Shown: positions 1,221-9,350 of the stretch, in pieces | How the letters are laid out: every line of letters begins with the position of its first letter | Position numbering within the stretch: the stretch's first letter is position 1 | Assembly: GCA_025057935.1 (NCBI GenBank) | Contig: JANWUW010000016.1 | Location: 1 to 34,607 of the forward strand | Direction: 5' to 3' | Source of the DNA: Thermoflexales bacterium | Lineage (GTDB): Bacteria; Chloroflexota; Anaerolineae; J036; Brachytrichaceae | Length of the DNA: 34,607 bases | The notes under the pieces: generated by a model | What the model was told of the DNA's origin: nothing | The model's database searches: none | The model's input: only the letters and a program-made list of their open reading frames with translations | Program-made: the position numbers and the translations under genes

Positions 1221-2147
1221 TCACTCGATGTCCTTTAGCACGTCCTCGAGGGCATGCTCCCAGACTTCGTCTAGCTTCGTGAAGGGCTTCTCGACGAAGT
1301 CGGCCGTCAGGCGCGCTAGATACTCCTTCAGCGGCACGCTTGGCAGCTTCTCGCTCAGTTCGTCAATGTTCTTGCGGATCGCCGCGATCATCGCCTCGCT
1401 GCGCTGCTGGAGATCGCGCAGATCTAAGCCGAGGCGGAACATGTGATTCAGCCGCACCATGATGTCATACCATGCCTTGTAGTCCTGGTCGAGCGCGATG
1501 TTGTGCGGCTGATGGAGGATCTGCGAGAGGTCGTAGGCAGGCACAAAGGCGTAGAACGTGAAGTACTCAATGTTGCGCCGCTCAGCAAGGTCATTCAGAT
1601 ACGAGCCGATGCTCACGCCGCCCTCGTAGTTGGAGAAGCTTACTGCATACTCGCTCAGCTCTTCCTTCATGCGCGGCAGGCTGTAAGTGCAGGAGATGGC
1701 GCGCTCCTTGTCGTATGGCACGGCAGCATACACGCCGCCCGTCGCTGCCACGCGCCTCACGTTAAGTTGCTGGACCAGCTCGAAGAACGCCTCAGCATAA
1801 CGCGCTACACGCATCTGCGGCTCGTCGCCGAGGAACAGCACCACTCCTTTGCGCTCGTCACCCCAGAAGAACACCTCCGTGCGCGGGCCAACCAACGACT
1901 TGCGATAGCCTTCCTCGAACTTCATCTGTGGACGGAAGAGGAACTGCGAGACCGGCGTCTGGAACAAGAAGAACTCATCCGAGTCGATCTCGCCTATCTT
2001 GCGCGCTTTGAGCGTGTCAATCAAGTATGTGAGCAACCCCGACGAGACCGCACCAGCGTCTGCCCATTGCCGCCAACCTGCGATCATCACCATATCCTCT
2101 GCCCGAGGTCGCTCGAACAATCGAATCAGCTTCTGCATGCCTCTCAC
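1221..2147 (-). CDS. PAC2 family protein
   Basis: A 308-residue protein with the PAC2 fold (proteasome-assembly-chaperone 2-like family): N-terminal IRLFERPRAEDMVMIAGWRQWADAG, a central RVAATGGVYAAVPYDKERA segment and a GLDLRDLQQRSE stretch near the C-terminus. Bacterial PAC2-family proteins are found mainly in actinobacteria and Chloroflexota; their biochemical role is not established, although the archaeal/eukaryotic namesakes act as chaperones and some bacterial members are annotated as carboxylate-amine ligase-like. No signal peptide or membrane segment, so cytoplasmic. The first codon is GTG at 2147; an ATG three codons in (2138) is preceded by GAGAGG but with almost no spacing, so the start is uncertain by three residues. 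It is transcribed divergently from the MBL gene and seems to be a single-gene unit. Confidence 0.85.
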   Translation of the reverse strand: MRGMQKLIRLFERPRAEDMVMIAGWRQWADAGAVSSGLLTYLIDTLKARKIGEIDSDEFFLFQTPVSQFLFRPQMKFEEGYRKSLVGPRTEVFFWGDERKGVVLFLGDEPQMRVARYAEAFFELVQQLNVRRVAATGGVYAAVPYDKERAISCTYSLPRMKEELSEYAVSFSNYEGGVSIGSYLNDLAERRNIEYFTFYAFVPAYDLSQILHQPHNIALDQDYKAWYDIMVRLNHMFRLGLDLRDLQQRSEAMIAAIRKNIDELSEKLPSVPLKEYLARLTADFVEKPFTKLDEVWEHALEDVLKDIE

Positions 2148-2254
2148 TCTACTTTGATAACGTAAGCGGTGGGTGTGTGTCGTGTTGGAGTGAGGTTAAT
2201 GCTAAGCAGCCTAACTTTAGAGACCAGCTCGTAGCAACGATTATGGCAAAAAAC

Positions 2255-2282
2255 TTGACAAATGCGCTAGCTGCGTTAATCT
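2255..2282 (+). promoter_or_regulatory. Sigma-70-type promoter of the MBL/EIICD operon, leaderless start
   Basis: A perfect -35 TTGACA at 2255-2260, a 16-base spacer and a -10 TAATCT at 2277-2282. Transcription would begin about 2289-2291, at or next to the ATG at 2292, so the mRNA would be leaderless. This agrees with the lack of a Shine-Dalgarno before the ATG and argues against the in-frame TTG at 2283. It is the only full TTGACA I found correctly spaced from a -10 in this window. Confidence 0.7.
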
Positions 2283-2291
2283 TTGCGCGCC

Positions 2292-3380
2292 ATGTCGTGG
2301 GAGCGCGCGTCGGAGGACGTGTACGTCTTCACGAGTGACCGATACGCTCAAGTTAACGCCTCGCTGGTTGTTGCTGAGGGCATCGGTGTTCTGATCGACA
2401 CCCTGCCCTTCCCCGAGGAGACACTCCAGATCGCGATGTTGGCGCGTCGCGTCTGCCCGCAGGGGATACGCTGCATCATTTACACCAGCCACGAAGCAGA
2501 CCACGTGTATGGGGCGTTTCTGTTCCCAGGCGCCGAGATCATCGCCCACGAACAATGCTTGGAAACGCTTCGGCTGCACGGCGAAGCCGCGCTACAGCGC
2601 GCGAAGGCGAGCACACCCGAGCTTGCTCCTGTGCGTCTGCGCTTGCCCACCATCACCTTTCGGCAAGGCAGCCTCACTCTGCGCCTGCCAAGCAAAACGC
2701 TCGAGATCACACACACGCCTGGGCACGCGCCAGATAGCATCGTAGTGCTGCTCCACGAAGAGAGCATCTTGTTTGCCGGTGATACAGTGATGGCTCTGCC
2801 AGCCATCGCACAAGGGGACCCTGACCAACTCAAACAATCCCTCGAGCGCATCAGCAACATGTCGCTGGAGAACATTGTGCAGGGGCACGGCGAGATCATT
2901 CTGCGCGGCGAGATCAAAGACACGCTGAAGCGCCAAATCGCCTATCTAGACACCCTGCGGAGCAGAGTGACGAAAATTGTGGAAGCCGGCGGGTCGCGTG
3001 AGGACGTGAAGGCAATTACACTGGAGTCGTGCGGCATGCAGCGTATCCTGCTAAACGGCTTTGCGCCACAGGTGCACCTCGCCAACGCATTGGCAATATA
3101 CGACCGACTCGCGGCAGCGCGCGCCTCAGCCGAAGCAGCCCCATCCGCGCGCCCATCGCGTGCGAAATCGGGCGAAACATCCGCGGGCGCTGAAGCGACA
3201 GATGCGGCACACAGTCGCAAACGCGCTCGCACCACAAAAACCACAAGGACGAAATCGAAGGCGAATCCCAAAAGCACCACAAAGAAGAGCAACGCCACGA
3301 AAGCAAAAAAGGACAAGAAGGGGAAATCTAGCGCCAAGCGCAAAACCAAGCCCGCGAAGAAAAAAGGGAAGCGCCCATGA
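2292..3380 (+). CDS. Metallo-beta-lactamase-fold protein with lysine-rich C-terminal tail
   Basis: A 362-residue protein. Residues 1-230 form an MBL-fold hydrolase: YTSHEADHVYG (about 65-74), THTPGHAPDS with a His at 145, FAGDT with Asp 164 and QGHGE with His 199. The first metal motif is altered: the usual HxHxDH reads SHEADH, so the first His is Ser and the second is Glu. Glu in the second place is known from diiron flavodiiron proteins, but the Ser is not usual, so metal content is uncertain. From about residue 280 the chain becomes a low-complexity Ala/Lys/Thr tail with more than 30 Lys/Arg and no hydrophobic core, like histone-H1/AlgP-type tails, likely disordered and nucleic-acid- or polyanion-binding. 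The stop overlaps the next start (ATGA, 3377-3380). Substrate unknown. No signal peptide, so presumably cytoplasmic. Confidence 0.85.
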   Translation: MSWERASEDVYVFTSDRYAQVNASLVVAEGIGVLIDTLPFPEETLQIAMLARRVCPQGIRCIIYTSHEADHVYGAFLFPGAEIIAHEQCLETLRLHGEAALQRAKASTPELAPVRLRLPTITFRQGSLTLRLPSKTLEITHTPGHAPDSIVVLLHEESILFAGDTVMALPAIAQGDPDQLKQSLERISNMSLENIVQGHGEIILRGEIKDTLKRQIAYLDTLRSRVTKIVEAGGSREDVKAITLESCGMQRILLNGFAPQVHLANALAIYDRLAAARASAEAAPSARPSRAKSGETSAGAEATDAAHSRKRARTTKTTRTKSKANPKSTTKKSNATKAKKDKKGKSSAKRKTKPAKKKGKRP

Positions 3381-5005
3381 GCGTGCTTCAAGCCGCAGCC
3401 ATCGCGCTGCTCTACGCGCTGGCGCGTTCAGCGTTGAGCGCTGGGCTGGGCAGCGCTGTGCTTTCCCAGCCGCTGGTCGCAGGCACGCTCGTCGGCGCGC
3501 TGTTGGGTGACCCGCTGCGTGGCGCCCAAATAGGCGGCTTGATGAATCTTGCGACGCTGGGCTTGACCCAGCTTCGCTTACGCCTGACCCCAGACATCGC
3601 ATTCGCCGGCTACGTTGGCGTGCCGCTGATGATGCTCGCGGGCCTAACTCCCGACTCACCTCAGGCTTCTGCGTTGTTCGCCGCACTTGCAGTGTTCAGC
3701 ACTGCGCTCGAAGTGAGCCGAGGGCTGTTCAACACACTTGTGGCGCACTGGGCAGACTACTTCGCCGACGAGGGCTACGTGGAGTGGGTGGCATTGCTGG
3801 GAGTGCTGCCCACGCAGCTCTGGGCGATGTTGACCACTTTCATCGCCGCACTCGCGCTGTTGCTGCTCGATGCGCCTGCTCTAGCCAACCTCGCGTTGAG
3901 CATCCCGAGCAGCGTGCAGTTTGCGCTGCAGGCAACGCAGGTGCTGCTCGCAGCGTTGGGTATGGCGTTGAGCTTGCGCTGGTTGCTCCAAGGGAGCAGC
4001 GCTGCCTACTTCTTGCTCGGCTACTTACTCGCCCCCGTGCTCGGCAGCGTGTCGGCATTTCTTTTTGGCGCCGGCGTTGCGACGATCCACGCCTACCTCG
4101 CACGCCGCCGACCCGACGCCGCACGGGAAGCACTCGTCACCGATGTGCTCCCAGCAGAACCTGTTGCCGCCTATGCGCCGAAGCGGCAACTCGCGCGCGC
4201 CGATTTGTTCGCCACGTTTCTGCTGTGGATGTTCTTCCATGACGCCGGCACGAACTTCGAGCGCCGGCAAAACTTGGGGGTTGCCGTGGCGCTGACGCCT
4301 GCAGCGCGCGCGCTGTGCGAAACGCTCGAGGAGCGCATTGCCTTCCTGCGCCGACACCTCACCTTGTTCAGCAGCGATTGGAGCTTCGGCGCTGCTGTGA
4401 TTGGCGCAGTGGCTGCTCTGGAGGAGCGCCGCGCCAACGGCGAGACCATCAGCGACGCCGAGATCGTCGGCACGAAAAGCGCTGGCATGCTGCTTGCCGA
4501 CGGGTTGGGGCGCGCGCTCTTGGTCGGCGGCAGCGGCGCATTGCTTGTTGCGCTTGGCATGCAGGAGGCGAACCAAGGCTCTTTGCTCGGCGTGTTGCTC
4601 TTTGCGCTTGTGCAGAGCACCCTCGTTGTTGCGAGCGGCGTGGGCAGCTTCTGGCTCGGCTTTGCGCAAGCGCGGGCGTTTGGCGAGTGGGCGCGCGAGC
4701 AAGGTTGGCTTCGGCCCGCTCTCTTCGGCGCAATGCGGCTTGGCGCCTGGGCACTTGGCGTGCTCACGCCCACCTTTGTGCCCTTCGTGCTTAGCCCCGA
4801 AGCAGGCGTTCGCATCGGCAACGTCGTCTGGTCGCCTCAAGCACAAGTGATGAACACACTGATGCCTCACGGCTTGCCGTTGCTGCTGGTGTTGGCGATG
4901 TGGTTCTTGCTACGTCAGCGGTGGTCACCGGTGACGATCTTTGGGGTGGGCCTTGTAACACCGTTGGCGCTTGCCTTGTTGCTCGCGCTGCTAGGCGTGG
5001 CGTAG
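3377..5005 (+). CDS. Fused mannose/sorbose-family PTS EIIC-EIID permease
   Basis: A 542-residue polytopic membrane protein. Residues 1-240 match the EIIC subunit of mannose-family phosphotransferase systems (QPLVAGTLVGALLGDP followed by GAQIGGLMNLATLG, residues 31-62). After a hydrophilic linker (about 243-272), residues 273-542 match EIID: FLLWMFFHDAGTNFERRQNLG, a cytoplasmic AxxLCETLEERIAFLRRHLTLFSSD block, then AALEERRANGE and a helical C-terminus. In known systems IIC and IID are separate proteins that form the sugar channel and need IIA and IIB domains for phosphorylation; no IIA or IIB is encoded here. Fusion in the order C-D is unusual. Translation is coupled to the tailed MBL gene by a 4-base overlap. 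It may be a PTS-derived transporter working without phosphorylation; the substrate cannot be told. Confidence 0.85.
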   Translation: MSVLQAAAIALLYALARSALSAGLGSAVLSQPLVAGTLVGALLGDPLRGAQIGGLMNLATLGLTQLRLRLTPDIAFAGYVGVPLMMLAGLTPDSPQASALFAALAVFSTALEVSRGLFNTLVAHWADYFADEGYVEWVALLGVLPTQLWAMLTTFIAALALLLLDAPALANLALSIPSSVQFALQATQVLLAALGMALSLRWLLQGSSAAYFLLGYLLAPVLGSVSAFLFGAGVATIHAYLARRRPDAAREALVTDVLPAEPVAAYAPKRQLARADLFATFLLWMFFHDAGTNFERRQNLGVAVALTPAARALCETLEERIAFLRRHLTLFSSDWSFGAAVIGAVAALEERRANGETISDAEIVGTKSAGMLLADGLGRALLVGGSGALLVALGMQEANQGSLLGVLLFALVQSTLVVASGVGSFWLGFAQARAFGEWAREQGWLRPALFGAMRLGAWALGVLTPTFVPFVLSPEAGVRIGNVVWSPQAQVMNTLMPHGLPLLLVLAMWFLLRQRWSPVTIFGVGLVTPLALALLLALLGVA

Positions 5006-5164
5006 GGCAGCTAGCGATCGCGGCAAGGCTCACACGCTCACGCCATAGCGAATGCACGCCTCAAAGCGTTCGACGTAGCGGACGCACAGCTTCTGCATCA
5101 GCATTTGCACATTTGCTCACGCTGAGAGGCGCACCACCCACGTCCTAACCCAAGCATGCATGTG

Positions 5165-5170
5165 TATAAT
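5165..5170 (+). promoter_or_regulatory. -10 box of the small winged-helix gene
   Basis: A perfect TATAAT in the context GTGTATAATCGT. No convincing -35. Transcription would begin near 5177 and give a leader of about 130 nt that contains the long hairpin at 5229-5280. Confidence 0.5.
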
Positions 5171-5228
5171 CGTGGTTGCAAGTAGCAAGGCAGAATACTA
5201 TTCCCGCTGCCTTGCGAACAGACCTCCT

Positions 5229-5280
5229 CCGTTCTCACGCGGGAGAGGTAGCCCCCGCCTCTCCCGCGTGCCGAGAACGG
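5229..5280 (+). promoter_or_regulatory. Long leader hairpin upstream of the winged-helix gene
   Basis: CCGTTCTC (5229-5236) and ACGCGGGAGAGG (5237-5248) pair with CCTCTCCCGCGT (5258-5269) and GAGAACGG (5273-5280). The result is 20 base pairs with a 9-base loop and one 3-base bulge (GCC, 5270-5272). There is no following T-run, so it is not a standard terminator. It ends 27 bases before the ATG at 5308, within the predicted 5' leader. It resembles no riboswitch I can recognise. It could be an RNA regulatory element, a protein-binding site or a processing site. Confidence 0.6.
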
Positions 5281-5307
5281 CGCTCGCTGAGAGGCGCGAT
5301 TGATACC

Positions 5308-5490
5308 ATGACGACCCAGAAGCAGCCGCCCTTCAAACTCACCAAGCTGGAGCGCACACTGGTCGAAGCAATCAAGAAGGCGCCGTTTGGTTTGCCCGAC
5401 TGGAACGCCATTGCCAAGGCGGAGAATGTGCCTGTGGAGTACATCCAGCAGCGGCTTGAGTGGCTGCGCAGCATGGGCGTGATCGAATGA
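5308..5490 (+). CDS. Small winged-helix-like protein, 60 residues
   Basis: Start ATG at 5308 (MTTQKQPPFKLTKLERTLVE), chosen because conservation-like, charged and helical sequence begins there and the codons upstream look random. The chain has a helix rich in Lys/Glu, then FGLPDWNAIAKAENVPVEYIQQRLEWLRSMGVIE, which fits the helix-turn-helix and end strand of a minimal winged-helix fold. It has no signal peptide. I do not recognise a named family; DNA or protein binding is an inference from the fold pattern. It is preceded by a 130-nt leader with an unusual hairpin and by paired direct repeats, so it may regulate itself. It is followed by tRNA-His with its own promoter. Confidence 0.7.
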   Translation: MTTQKQPPFKLTKLERTLVEAIKKAPFGLPDWNAIAKAENVPVEYIQQRLEWLRSMGVIE

Positions 5491-5561
5491 GCAATCTCGG
5501 AGGCAGGGAGACCCGCTCCGCCTTCAGCGGCACGCGATCCGCTCCTGCTGTGCTCTCTTTG

Positions 5562-5570
5562 TGATAGAAT
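5562..5570 (+). promoter_or_regulatory. Extended -10 promoter of tRNA-His
   Basis: TGATAGAAT is an extended -10 (TGn plus TAGAAT at 5565-5570). The tRNA 5' end is at 5582, so transcription would start only a few bases before it. Confidence 0.55.
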
Positions 5571-5581
5571 GTTAGCTGCGT

Positions 5582-5654
5582 GGCGCCTTTAGCTCAATGG
5601 CAGAGCGTCTGACTGTGGCTCAGAAGGTTACGGGTTCGAGCCCCGTAAGGCGCC
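5582..5654 (+). tRNA. tRNA-His (GTG anticodon)
   Basis: A complete cloverleaf: acceptor GCGCCTT (5583-5589) pairs with AAGGCGC (5647-5653), the D-stem is GCTC/GAGC, the anticodon stem is TCTGA/TCAGA around loop CTGTGGC with anticodon GTG, and the T-arm is ACGGG-TTCGAGC-CCCGT. The discriminator is C (5654) and is opposed by an encoded extra G at 5582, the G-1:C73 pair that is the identity mark for histidyl-tRNA synthetase. No CCA is encoded. The stop codon of the convergent L,D-transpeptidase gene lies only 4 bases away, with no visible terminator between them. Confidence 0.96.
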
Positions 5655-5658
5655 TTCC

Positions 5659-6711
5659 TCAAAATACGATCACTCGCGTCGCATAGGGGTCATTGCGCCG
5701 AATCTCGATCTCGTTGTAGCCCATCGGCGGTAGCGTCCAGCGCCAGATCCACTGTGCCACAGGAGCAGGCAAGTTCACGCAGCCATGGCTGCGTTGGCGC
5801 CCGAAATCATTGTGCCAGTAGGCACCGTGAAAGGCGACAGCGGTCGCCGTGAAATAGGCGGGGAAAGGCACGCCGGGCAGGTCGTAAAAGTCTCTTCCTT
5901 CGCCTCCGATCATGCGCGAAGACATGCGCTTGCGAATGATGCGGTGCTGCCCTCGCGGTGTCTGGAAGCGCCCAAAGCCAGTCGCCGCGCGCGCAGTGAG
6001 CACCACACGATCGCCCTCATAAGCCGTGACGATTTGCCGCCGAAGGTCCACCTCGATACGTTTTTGGTCTGGCAGCACCTCTGGGTGGACAGGCATAAGC
6101 TCCTCCGGCGGAATGCGGCGCAGGTGCGAGGCTGGCACGTAGGGACCCGCGTTGCTCCACACAAGCCCATGCCCGATGCGATACCACCACTGCCCATCTT
6201 CGCCAATTGCAGCCTCGGACACGCGGTACACACTGGTGTAATACAGGCGCCGTACCCTGCGAGCGTGCGGCGAGGGTTGCGCGCGCGCCTCCGTGAACGG
6301 CACAGTTACCTGCGCCCAGAAACCTTGAGAGGCAAGGGCAGGCTCAGGCACCTGAAAGTCCTGACGCACTGGCTGCACGAAAGAAGAATGCAGCCATCCC
6401 TCTTCCACTTTGTACCAAACCGGATTGTGCGGCAACAGCGGATCGCCGACCGCTTGTGCAAGAAGGGCGAGCACTTCGTCGTTGTAAGCGTAGCGCACAA
6501 GCTTGGCATTTCGCCGCGGCGCCTCGCGGATAGCCAGGCGCCACGTGGTGATGCGCCCCAATGGCGCCGGCGGCTGATCGGCGTCCATCGGTTGTGCGTC
6601 AGCGGCTTCATCTGCGAACAGATACCCCAAGTTGGTGAACGGCGCGAGCGCTAAAGCAGCAGCGAGGGTGCCGGCGTGCTTCAGCAGGCTTCGTCTTGTC
6701 CAAAGCTTCAT
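5659..6711 (-). CDS. Tat-exported L,D-transpeptidase (YkuD) with SH3-like domains
   Basis: A 350-residue protein from ATG 6711-6709. The N-terminus MKLWTRRSLLKHAG with a following hydrophobic stretch is a twin-arginine export signal (TRRSLLK). Residues about 50-115 and 140-205 look like two SH3b-type domains (each with a W-Y-x-V/I pattern). The C-terminal YkuD domain carries HGAYWHND (His 295) and RSHGCVNL (His 309, catalytic Cys 311), the complete active site. L,D-transpeptidases cross-link peptidoglycan stem peptides or attach proteins to them outside the membrane. The gene follows the PIG-L deacetylase by 7 bp with GGAG upstream, so it is the last gene of the envelope operon. An upstream in-frame extension exists but lies inside the deacetylase gene. 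Confidence 0.9.
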   Translation of the reverse strand: MKLWTRRSLLKHAGTLAAALALAPFTNLGYLFADEAADAQPMDADQPPAPLGRITTWRLAIREAPRRNAKLVRYAYNDEVLALLAQAVGDPLLPHNPVWYKVEEGWLHSSFVQPVRQDFQVPEPALASQGFWAQVTVPFTEARAQPSPHARRVRRLYYTSVYRVSEAAIGEDGQWWYRIGHGLVWSNAGPYVPASHLRRIPPEELMPVHPEVLPDQKRIEVDLRRQIVTAYEGDRVVLTARAATGFGRFQTPRGQHRIIRKRMSSRMIGGEGRDFYDLPGVPFPAYFTATAVAFHGAYWHNDFGRQRSHGCVNLPAPVAQWIWRWTLPPMGYNEIEIRRNDPYATRVIVF

Positions 6712-8210: not shown

Positions 8211-9350
8211 TCAAGGTGCGGTGGCGTGATCTTCGCCGCGGATGAAAGCCTCCACCCTCTGACGCGCTTCGTCGTCGGTGAGCTGCTGAGGTGGCGACTT
8301 CATGAAGTATGCCGAGGGGCTGATCAGCGCGCCGCTCAAGCCGCGGTCGAGAGCAAGCTTAGCGCAGCGGATTGCATCAATGACCACGCCTGCGCTATTC
8401 GGGCTATCCCACACCTCTAGCTTCAGCTCAACGTTCAACGGCACATCGCCAAAAGTGGTGCCTTCAATGCGTATGTACGCCCACTTGCGATCAGTGAGCC
8501 AGGGGATGTAATCGCTGGGTCCAACGTGCACATTGTCATCGGGGATCTCGTAGGGCACTTGTGAGGTGACGGCCTGCGTTTTGCTCACTTTCTTTGACTC
8601 GAGGCGCTCGCGCTCAAGCATGTTGAGAAAGTCGGTGTTGCCGCCGAAGTTGAGCTGGTAAGTGCGGTCGATGCGCACACCGCGCTCCACAAATAACCGC
8701 GCCAACGTGCGGTGCACAATGGTCGCGCCAACTTGGCTCTTGATGTCGTCGCCGACGATCGGCAAGCCGCGCTCGCGGAATCGCCGTTGCCAGTATGGCT
8801 CACGTGCGATGAACACTGGAATGCAGTTGACAAAGGCGCAGCCTGCCTGCAACACTTGCTCCACGTACCACTTGGTCGCCTCTTCGCTGCCCACTGGCAA
8901 ATAGTTCACCACAACGTCGGTTTGCGTCTCTTTAAGGATGTTGACTACATCGCTCGTCTCGCCTGGCGCCTTCTTGATAACGCCGGCGAGATACTTGCCA
9001 ATGCCGTCATGAGTCATGCCGCGGTACACGCGGCAACCGAGATAGGGCACCTCGGCAAACTTGTAGGTGTTGTTCGGCGGCACAAAGATCGCCTCGCTGA
9101 GGTCCTTGCCCACCTTGTTCACGTCAATGTCGAACGCAGCGGTGAACTCGATGTCACCGACGTGATACTCGCCGAGCTGAACATGCATCAGACCAGGCAC
9201 GAAGGTCGCAGGGTCTGCGTTGCGGTAATACTGCACACCTTGCACGAGCGCGCTGGCGCAATTGCCCACACCAATGATGGCAACGCGCACTTTCTTCTTG
9301 CTGGAGTTTGGCGTGCGAGGAGAACGGGCAATGTCGTTTGAAGCCGCCAT
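8211..9350 (-). CDS. ino1: Inositol-3-phosphate synthase
   Basis: A 379-residue protein of the prokaryotic type. It converts glucose-6-phosphate to 1D-myo-inositol 3-phosphate with NAD. Visible signatures are the Rossmann [19 protein letters not shown], the [12 protein letters not shown] segment, [45 protein letters not shown] and [12 protein letters not shown], then [13 protein letters not shown] near the end. The start ATG at 9350-9348 has a strong Shine-Dalgarno, GGAAGGAG, at good spacing, and a -10 at 9392-9387. Downstream on the same strand are two L,D-transpeptidases and a PIG-L deacetylase, suggesting the inositol goes to phosphatidylinositol-type lipids, an inositol-linked thiol or an envelope glycan rather than only to a compatible solute. 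Confidence 0.96.

Follow-up and report, generated by a model that had tools for sequence, protein, structure and literature searches.

The IIC and IID components of the mannose-family phosphotransferase system (Man-PTS) are trimeric elevator carriers in the structures described, in which the Core moves and the Vmotif stays fixed (PMC8021565; PMC11403280), and Man-PTS membrane units were reported to let galactose, trehalose and xylose through by facilitated diffusion (PMC6085457). The replacement of N28 by Lys in PtnD lies near the sugar pocket, and for Core mutations, this one included, lost uptake of mannose and glucose was reported (PMC10783117). Permeases of the PTS are usually seen as tied to phosphorylation. 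A limited literature search turned up, among the titles and abstracts listed, no account of a Man-type IIC-IID standing alone, and no paper that combines Chloroflexi with mannose, IIC and IID.

In the window (the whole stretch of 34,607 nucleotides analysed), one protein was read from its sequence as a Man-PTS-derived membrane unit that probably stands outside the PTS and would move a solute without PEP coupling. The features concerned were:

2292..3380, + strand: metallo-beta-lactamase (MBL)-fold gene, 362 aa from the ATG at 2292, Lys/Arg-rich C-terminal tail (PF00753, E 1.2e-19)
2484-2504: degenerate HxHxDH motif of the window MBL, reading T-S-H-E-A-D-H
3377..3380, + strand: ATGA stop/start overlap of MBL and IIC-IID, from the MBL ORF end and the junction sequence
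3377..5005, + strand: fused IIC-IID gene, 542 aa, no internal stops
Residues 3-235 of the fusion: IIC domain (EII-Sor, PF03609; Pfam E 4.7e-32, 111.7 bits, gathering score 26.3)
4082..4189, + strand: IIC/IID linker, residues about 236-271, with a basic start and an L-x-x-D-x-LP motif, from alignments
Residues 272-534 of the fusion: IID domain (EIID-AGA, PF03613; Pfam E 2.4e-38, 132.3 bits, gathering score 25)

Both Pfam domains were significant in the HMM search and far above their gathering scores, which marks the protein as a Man-family Enzyme II membrane unit by descent and, with the PDB matches, bears out the original observation of one 542-residue chain with an IIC half and an IID half. 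In phmmer against the PDB, E. coli ManZ (6k1h, 3.3e-24) and ManY (7dyr/6k1h, about 3e-10) were each matched in the corresponding half, and all matches of the PDB sequence search were Man-PTS chains, IIC in the first half and IID in the second. NCBIfam subfamily and equivalog models for IIC and IID were matched with scores well under their cut-offs, so that the window protein is a divergent relative. The AlphaFold model, made from 10 sequences, was of low confidence (pLDDT 59), and its 24 best PDB structural matches were all Man-PTS chains.

Of 400 Chloroflexota genomes searched with a profile, 24 gave matches. Fusion of IIC with IID was recurrent in Chloroflexota, in several families and mostly adjoining IIA/IIB. 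The neighbours of the fused IIC-IID were IIA- and IIB-like genes at L065, L066 and L068, a IIB-like gene at L067 (HPr and EI close by), and IIB at L070 and L073; for L065-L068 and L070, IIA and IIB were identified from the sequence and not via an HMM run. Separate IIC and IID chains, as had been assumed for mannose-family systems, are thus not the general rule in Chloroflexota, and the idea that the fusion in itself was exceptional was rejected, as complete Man-PTS operons of several Chloroflexota families have it.

The fused IIC-IID proteins of another Chloroflexota family had an N-terminal signal-peptide-like extension ahead of IIC (L062:5590-7509, L063:7967-10003, L064:6501-8516 and L066:6533-8503). 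A protein of 237-244 aa adjoined canonical IIB and IIC-IID genes (L061:7313-8047, L149:6973-7707 and L073:3806-4519), with no Pfam match in the two copies scanned (L061 and L073). In L061:3374-8047 and L149:2961-7707, a canonical Man-PTS paralogue lay beside inositol-phosphate synthase-like and CDP-alcohol transferase-like genes (read by eye), and a synthase-like gene similar to the first of these neighbours was present in the window (8211-9350). These neighbours are possibly a hint of the substrate.

The unusual part is a monophyletic clade of MBL-linked fusions, hereafter orphans, in one Chloroflexota family (f1, the window's family; 16 rows, support 100/100). The stem of the orphan clade was long in the tree (1.18 changes per column), and the clade did not join the canonical fusions of its own carrier genomes (L061, L073 and L131); with several long branches flagged in the IIC-IID tree, deeper placement is unsure. 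The fusion arrangement was kept across the 16 compared homologues. The linker motif, which reads LVTDVLP in the window protein, was clade-specific in the alignments, and was present neither in canonical fusions nor in the two orphans that diverge most. The source genomes of ten orphan-type loci carried the labels Chloroflexota, Thermoflexales, Anaerolineae, Roseilinea or uncultured bacterium. Within f1, three genomes (G540, G588 and G615) were without the fusion and kept the MBL gene.

Profile searches found no IIB (PF03830) in the window genome (G000) or in most carrier genomes, and none of EI, HPr, Man-IIA and IIB in at least 10 of the 17 carriers (G005, G007, G162, G307, G328, G353, G555, G578, G597 and G624). 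Five of these (G578, G624, G307, G162 and G353) apparently equal G003, G004, G006, G008 and G009, and each was counted once. Most carrier genomes are MAGs, in which single absences are weak; G597 consisted of one contig and was 97% complete, and G162, G307, G578 and G555 were 95-99% complete. Among the control genomes, E. coli, B. subtilis and others were matched by the EI, HPr and IIA profiles, and those of E. coli, B. subtilis and L. lactis by the IIB profile, which shows that the search method works. The prediction of a reduced PTS-derived permease was strengthened by these carriers, one-contig genome included, without any of the PTS phosphotransfer components sought.

In the window genome, all IIA, HPr and EI matches fell in one 791-aa IIA-HPr-EI protein, directly adjoining a DAK2-domain (DhaL) gene. 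Its homologues in L147 and L150 passed TIGR02364 (DhaM) and were located with DhaK- and DhaL-like genes; DhaK was not seen within 13 kb around the locus in the window genome. By sequence, the 791-aa protein is DhaM-like. The fusion might still be an ordinary Man-PTS channel, served by IIA, IIB, HPr and EI from elsewhere in the genome, and a IIA-HPr-EI protein of the kind that could be called upon was indeed encoded by four of the eleven genomes first searched, among them the window genome. This explanation is largely refuted and highly improbable: the IIB that a functional Man-PTS needs was missing from the window genome and most carriers, the IIA-HPr-EI protein adjoined DhaL, and EI and HPr were entirely absent from at least ten carriers. 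Only three carrier genomes had IIB (G010, G286 and G606), adjoining a second, canonical IIC-IID fusion, and no complete Man-PTS with the window protein as its channel was found; use by a distant Man-PTS was rejected for the window genome, as IIB was absent. The absence of IIA and IIB, originally noted beside the gene, thus held locally, and genome-wide it held for IIB, with a single DhaM-type protein accounting for IIA, HPr and EI.

Other PTS genes occurred among these genomes. In G567, EI and HPr were next to apparent glucitol-type PTS genes (read by eye), and HPr-EI fusions lay in apparent mannitol PTS clusters of two family members without the orphan permease (L144:4078-8145 and L145:2846-7212). 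The family member G588 (L138, L158) gave Man-type IIB and IIA matches but none with the orphan IIC-IID profile.

The ratio dN/dS (NG86) was 0.12-0.20 in close pairs of orphan genes, 0.12-0.34 in most pairs, and at most 0.41 in distant pairs, with dS near saturation. These low ratios indicate that the orphan gene is maintained by purifying selection, and the open reading frame was intact across the 16 compared loci. In the relative G328, a five-contig assembly, the orphan fusion had two single-base insertions compared with L006, to which it was 96% identical (L060:3481-5065); the insertions are probably assembly or sequencing errors and, less probably, the mark of a pseudogene. The lack of PTS partners and the two frameshifts of G328 could both be expected of a decaying relic of a lost Man-PTS, which is nonetheless hardly probable at all, against the dN/dS of most pairs, the intact frames and the resemblance of the G328 insertions to sequencing errors.

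Residues were compared between 16 orphans and 14 canonical sequences. Residues R31, G67, G372 and P388 were fixed in 14/14 canonical proteins and changed in 16/16 orphans, so that these four residues, invariant in the canonical proteins of functional systems, were not present: R31 was replaced by Q in all orphans, G67 by R in 15 and by Q in one, G372 was lost in all, and P388 was lost (A or S) in all. The residue G/A299 was changed to N in 16/16 orphans, and D379 was retained in just 6 of 16. Conversely, N57, D73, N293, E295, R296 and M371 were retained in all 16 orphans, and Q298 and K367 in 15; N293 aligned with N28 of L. lactis PtnD. With pocket-region residues both retained and changed, the sugar pocket of the orphan clade, as read from the alignment, is partly kept and partly rebuilt. 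Transport could have been lost, to judge from the altered GPxAGxGD stretch, a conserved part of IID.

A descendant that no longer transports, with IIC-IID as a ligand-binding membrane receptor or scaffold for which the basic-tailed MBL protein is the signalling partner or the anchored cargo, would agree with the loss of GPxAGxGD, R31 and G67, with the clade-specific linker motif and with the tight operon with an altered MBL. It is unlikely, since the whole permease is under purifying selection, N293, E295, R296 and D73 are retained, and the family also has the MBL without the permease.

For the preferred reading, a Man-PTS-derived carrier working outside the PTS, the presence of IIC and IID in one chain would represent a Man-type membrane unit detached from the phosphotransferase system. 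The orphan would still assemble like ManYZ and act as an elevator-type carrier for a sugar- or polyol-like solute, which would cross through either facilitated diffusion or ion-coupled transport and would not be phosphorylated on the way. Facilitated diffusion, a side ability of Man-PTS units, would thereby have become the main job of the orphan clade. Its upstream partner would be an altered, half-metal-site MBL protein, probably co-transcribed and translationally coupled with it.

In f1, the fusion lay directly 3' of the MBL gene, the two overlapping or standing a few bases apart, and both the adjacency and the ATGA-type overlap were kept in several genera. The ATGA overlap with the tailed MBL gene, as originally noted, was present in the window, where the MBL gene ends at 3380 and the fusion begins at 3377. 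The MBL start is more likely ATG 2292 than TTG 2283, by agreement with homologous sequences. The promoter scan found no sigma-70-like site in 2000-5700.

The MBL profile matched in 203/249 genomes of the class, and none of the 12 non-family MBL loci examined had the fusion; their neighbours differed. Conservation of the MBL and IIC-IID pair thus stood within f1, as a tight conserved operon, and did not extend to the 12 loci outside the family, and the MBL was rejected as specific to the pair. The MBL motif was TH[YH]H[AT]DH, an intact HxHxDH, in 11/12 sampled class members outside the family (L124 reads TISHADH), and T-[GSQ]-[HYP]-[EQ]-[AG]-D-H in 15/15 aligned members of the family, with 2/3 of the metal site 1 ligands lost. 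The site-2 residues (D, H, GD and GHG) and PGH were retained in the family alignment; of the full set of a dinuclear MBL metallohydrolase (intact HxHxDH with PGH, GD and GHG), only HxHxDH was degenerate. Degeneration of the MBL as a consequence of permease acquisition was unsupported, as the family members L110 and L111, without the permease, are also degenerate. Most family members and four of the outsiders sampled had the basic MBL tail, which is therefore not specific to the MBL/permease pair; a role in membrane or nucleic-acid contact is speculation.

It had been proposed that the MBL protein processes the substrate of the permease. A transporter-enzyme pair, in which the permease imports a compound and the MBL hydrolyses it, is compatible with a PTS-independent carrier, and agrees with an adjacency and ATGA-type overlap conserved in several genera; single-site MBL enzymes of the B2 type exist. 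The proposal was weakened by an MBL that is class-wide and without the permease at all non-family loci examined, that also occurs without it inside the family, and whose HxHxDH is degenerate family-wide, with one metal site stripped of two of its three ligands even in permease-less members; hydrolysis of the imported compound is possible but improbable. Rather more doubtful is that the MBL protein has replaced IIB at the cytoplasmic dock, where it would bind IIC-IID, perhaps via the linker and the basic tail, and gate the carrier or process its cargo. If this holds, PTS parts would have given rise to a novel system of two genes for transport or sensing independent of PEP. The annotation "mannose PTS" is misleading for proteins like the orphans, and the orphan family would be a natural test of what the Man-type unit does by itself, and of which of its residues are there for transport and which for phosphoryl coupling.

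Among known systems, the best NCBIfam relatives of the window MBL were SoxH-related MBL-fold hydrolases (TIGR04558/TIGR04559), from which it differs in scores far under the curated cut-offs, in the HxHxDH that is degenerate in the family and in the basic tail. The Man-PTS fusions of Chloroflexota (e.g., L065, L066, L067, L068 and L073) have domain order and fused state in common with the window protein; the window clade differs, as those fusions adjoin IIB (mostly IIA too), keep the canonical residues and occupy separate branches of the tree. E. coli ManYZ and Gram-positive ManCD and PtnCD (6k1h, 7dyr, 7vlx, 8hfs and 9wjr) are homologous to both halves of the window protein and share with it NxERxQ in IID and D73 in IIC, whereas the window protein is one chain without IIA/IIB, carries R31Q, G67R and G299N, and has lost G372 and P388. 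In Man-PTS units acting as facilitators (PMC6085457), passage is a side activity with an intact PTS, whereas the orphan clade has a diverged protein and no PTS beside it; those units provide the precedent for solute passage without phosphorylation via a Man-type membrane unit.
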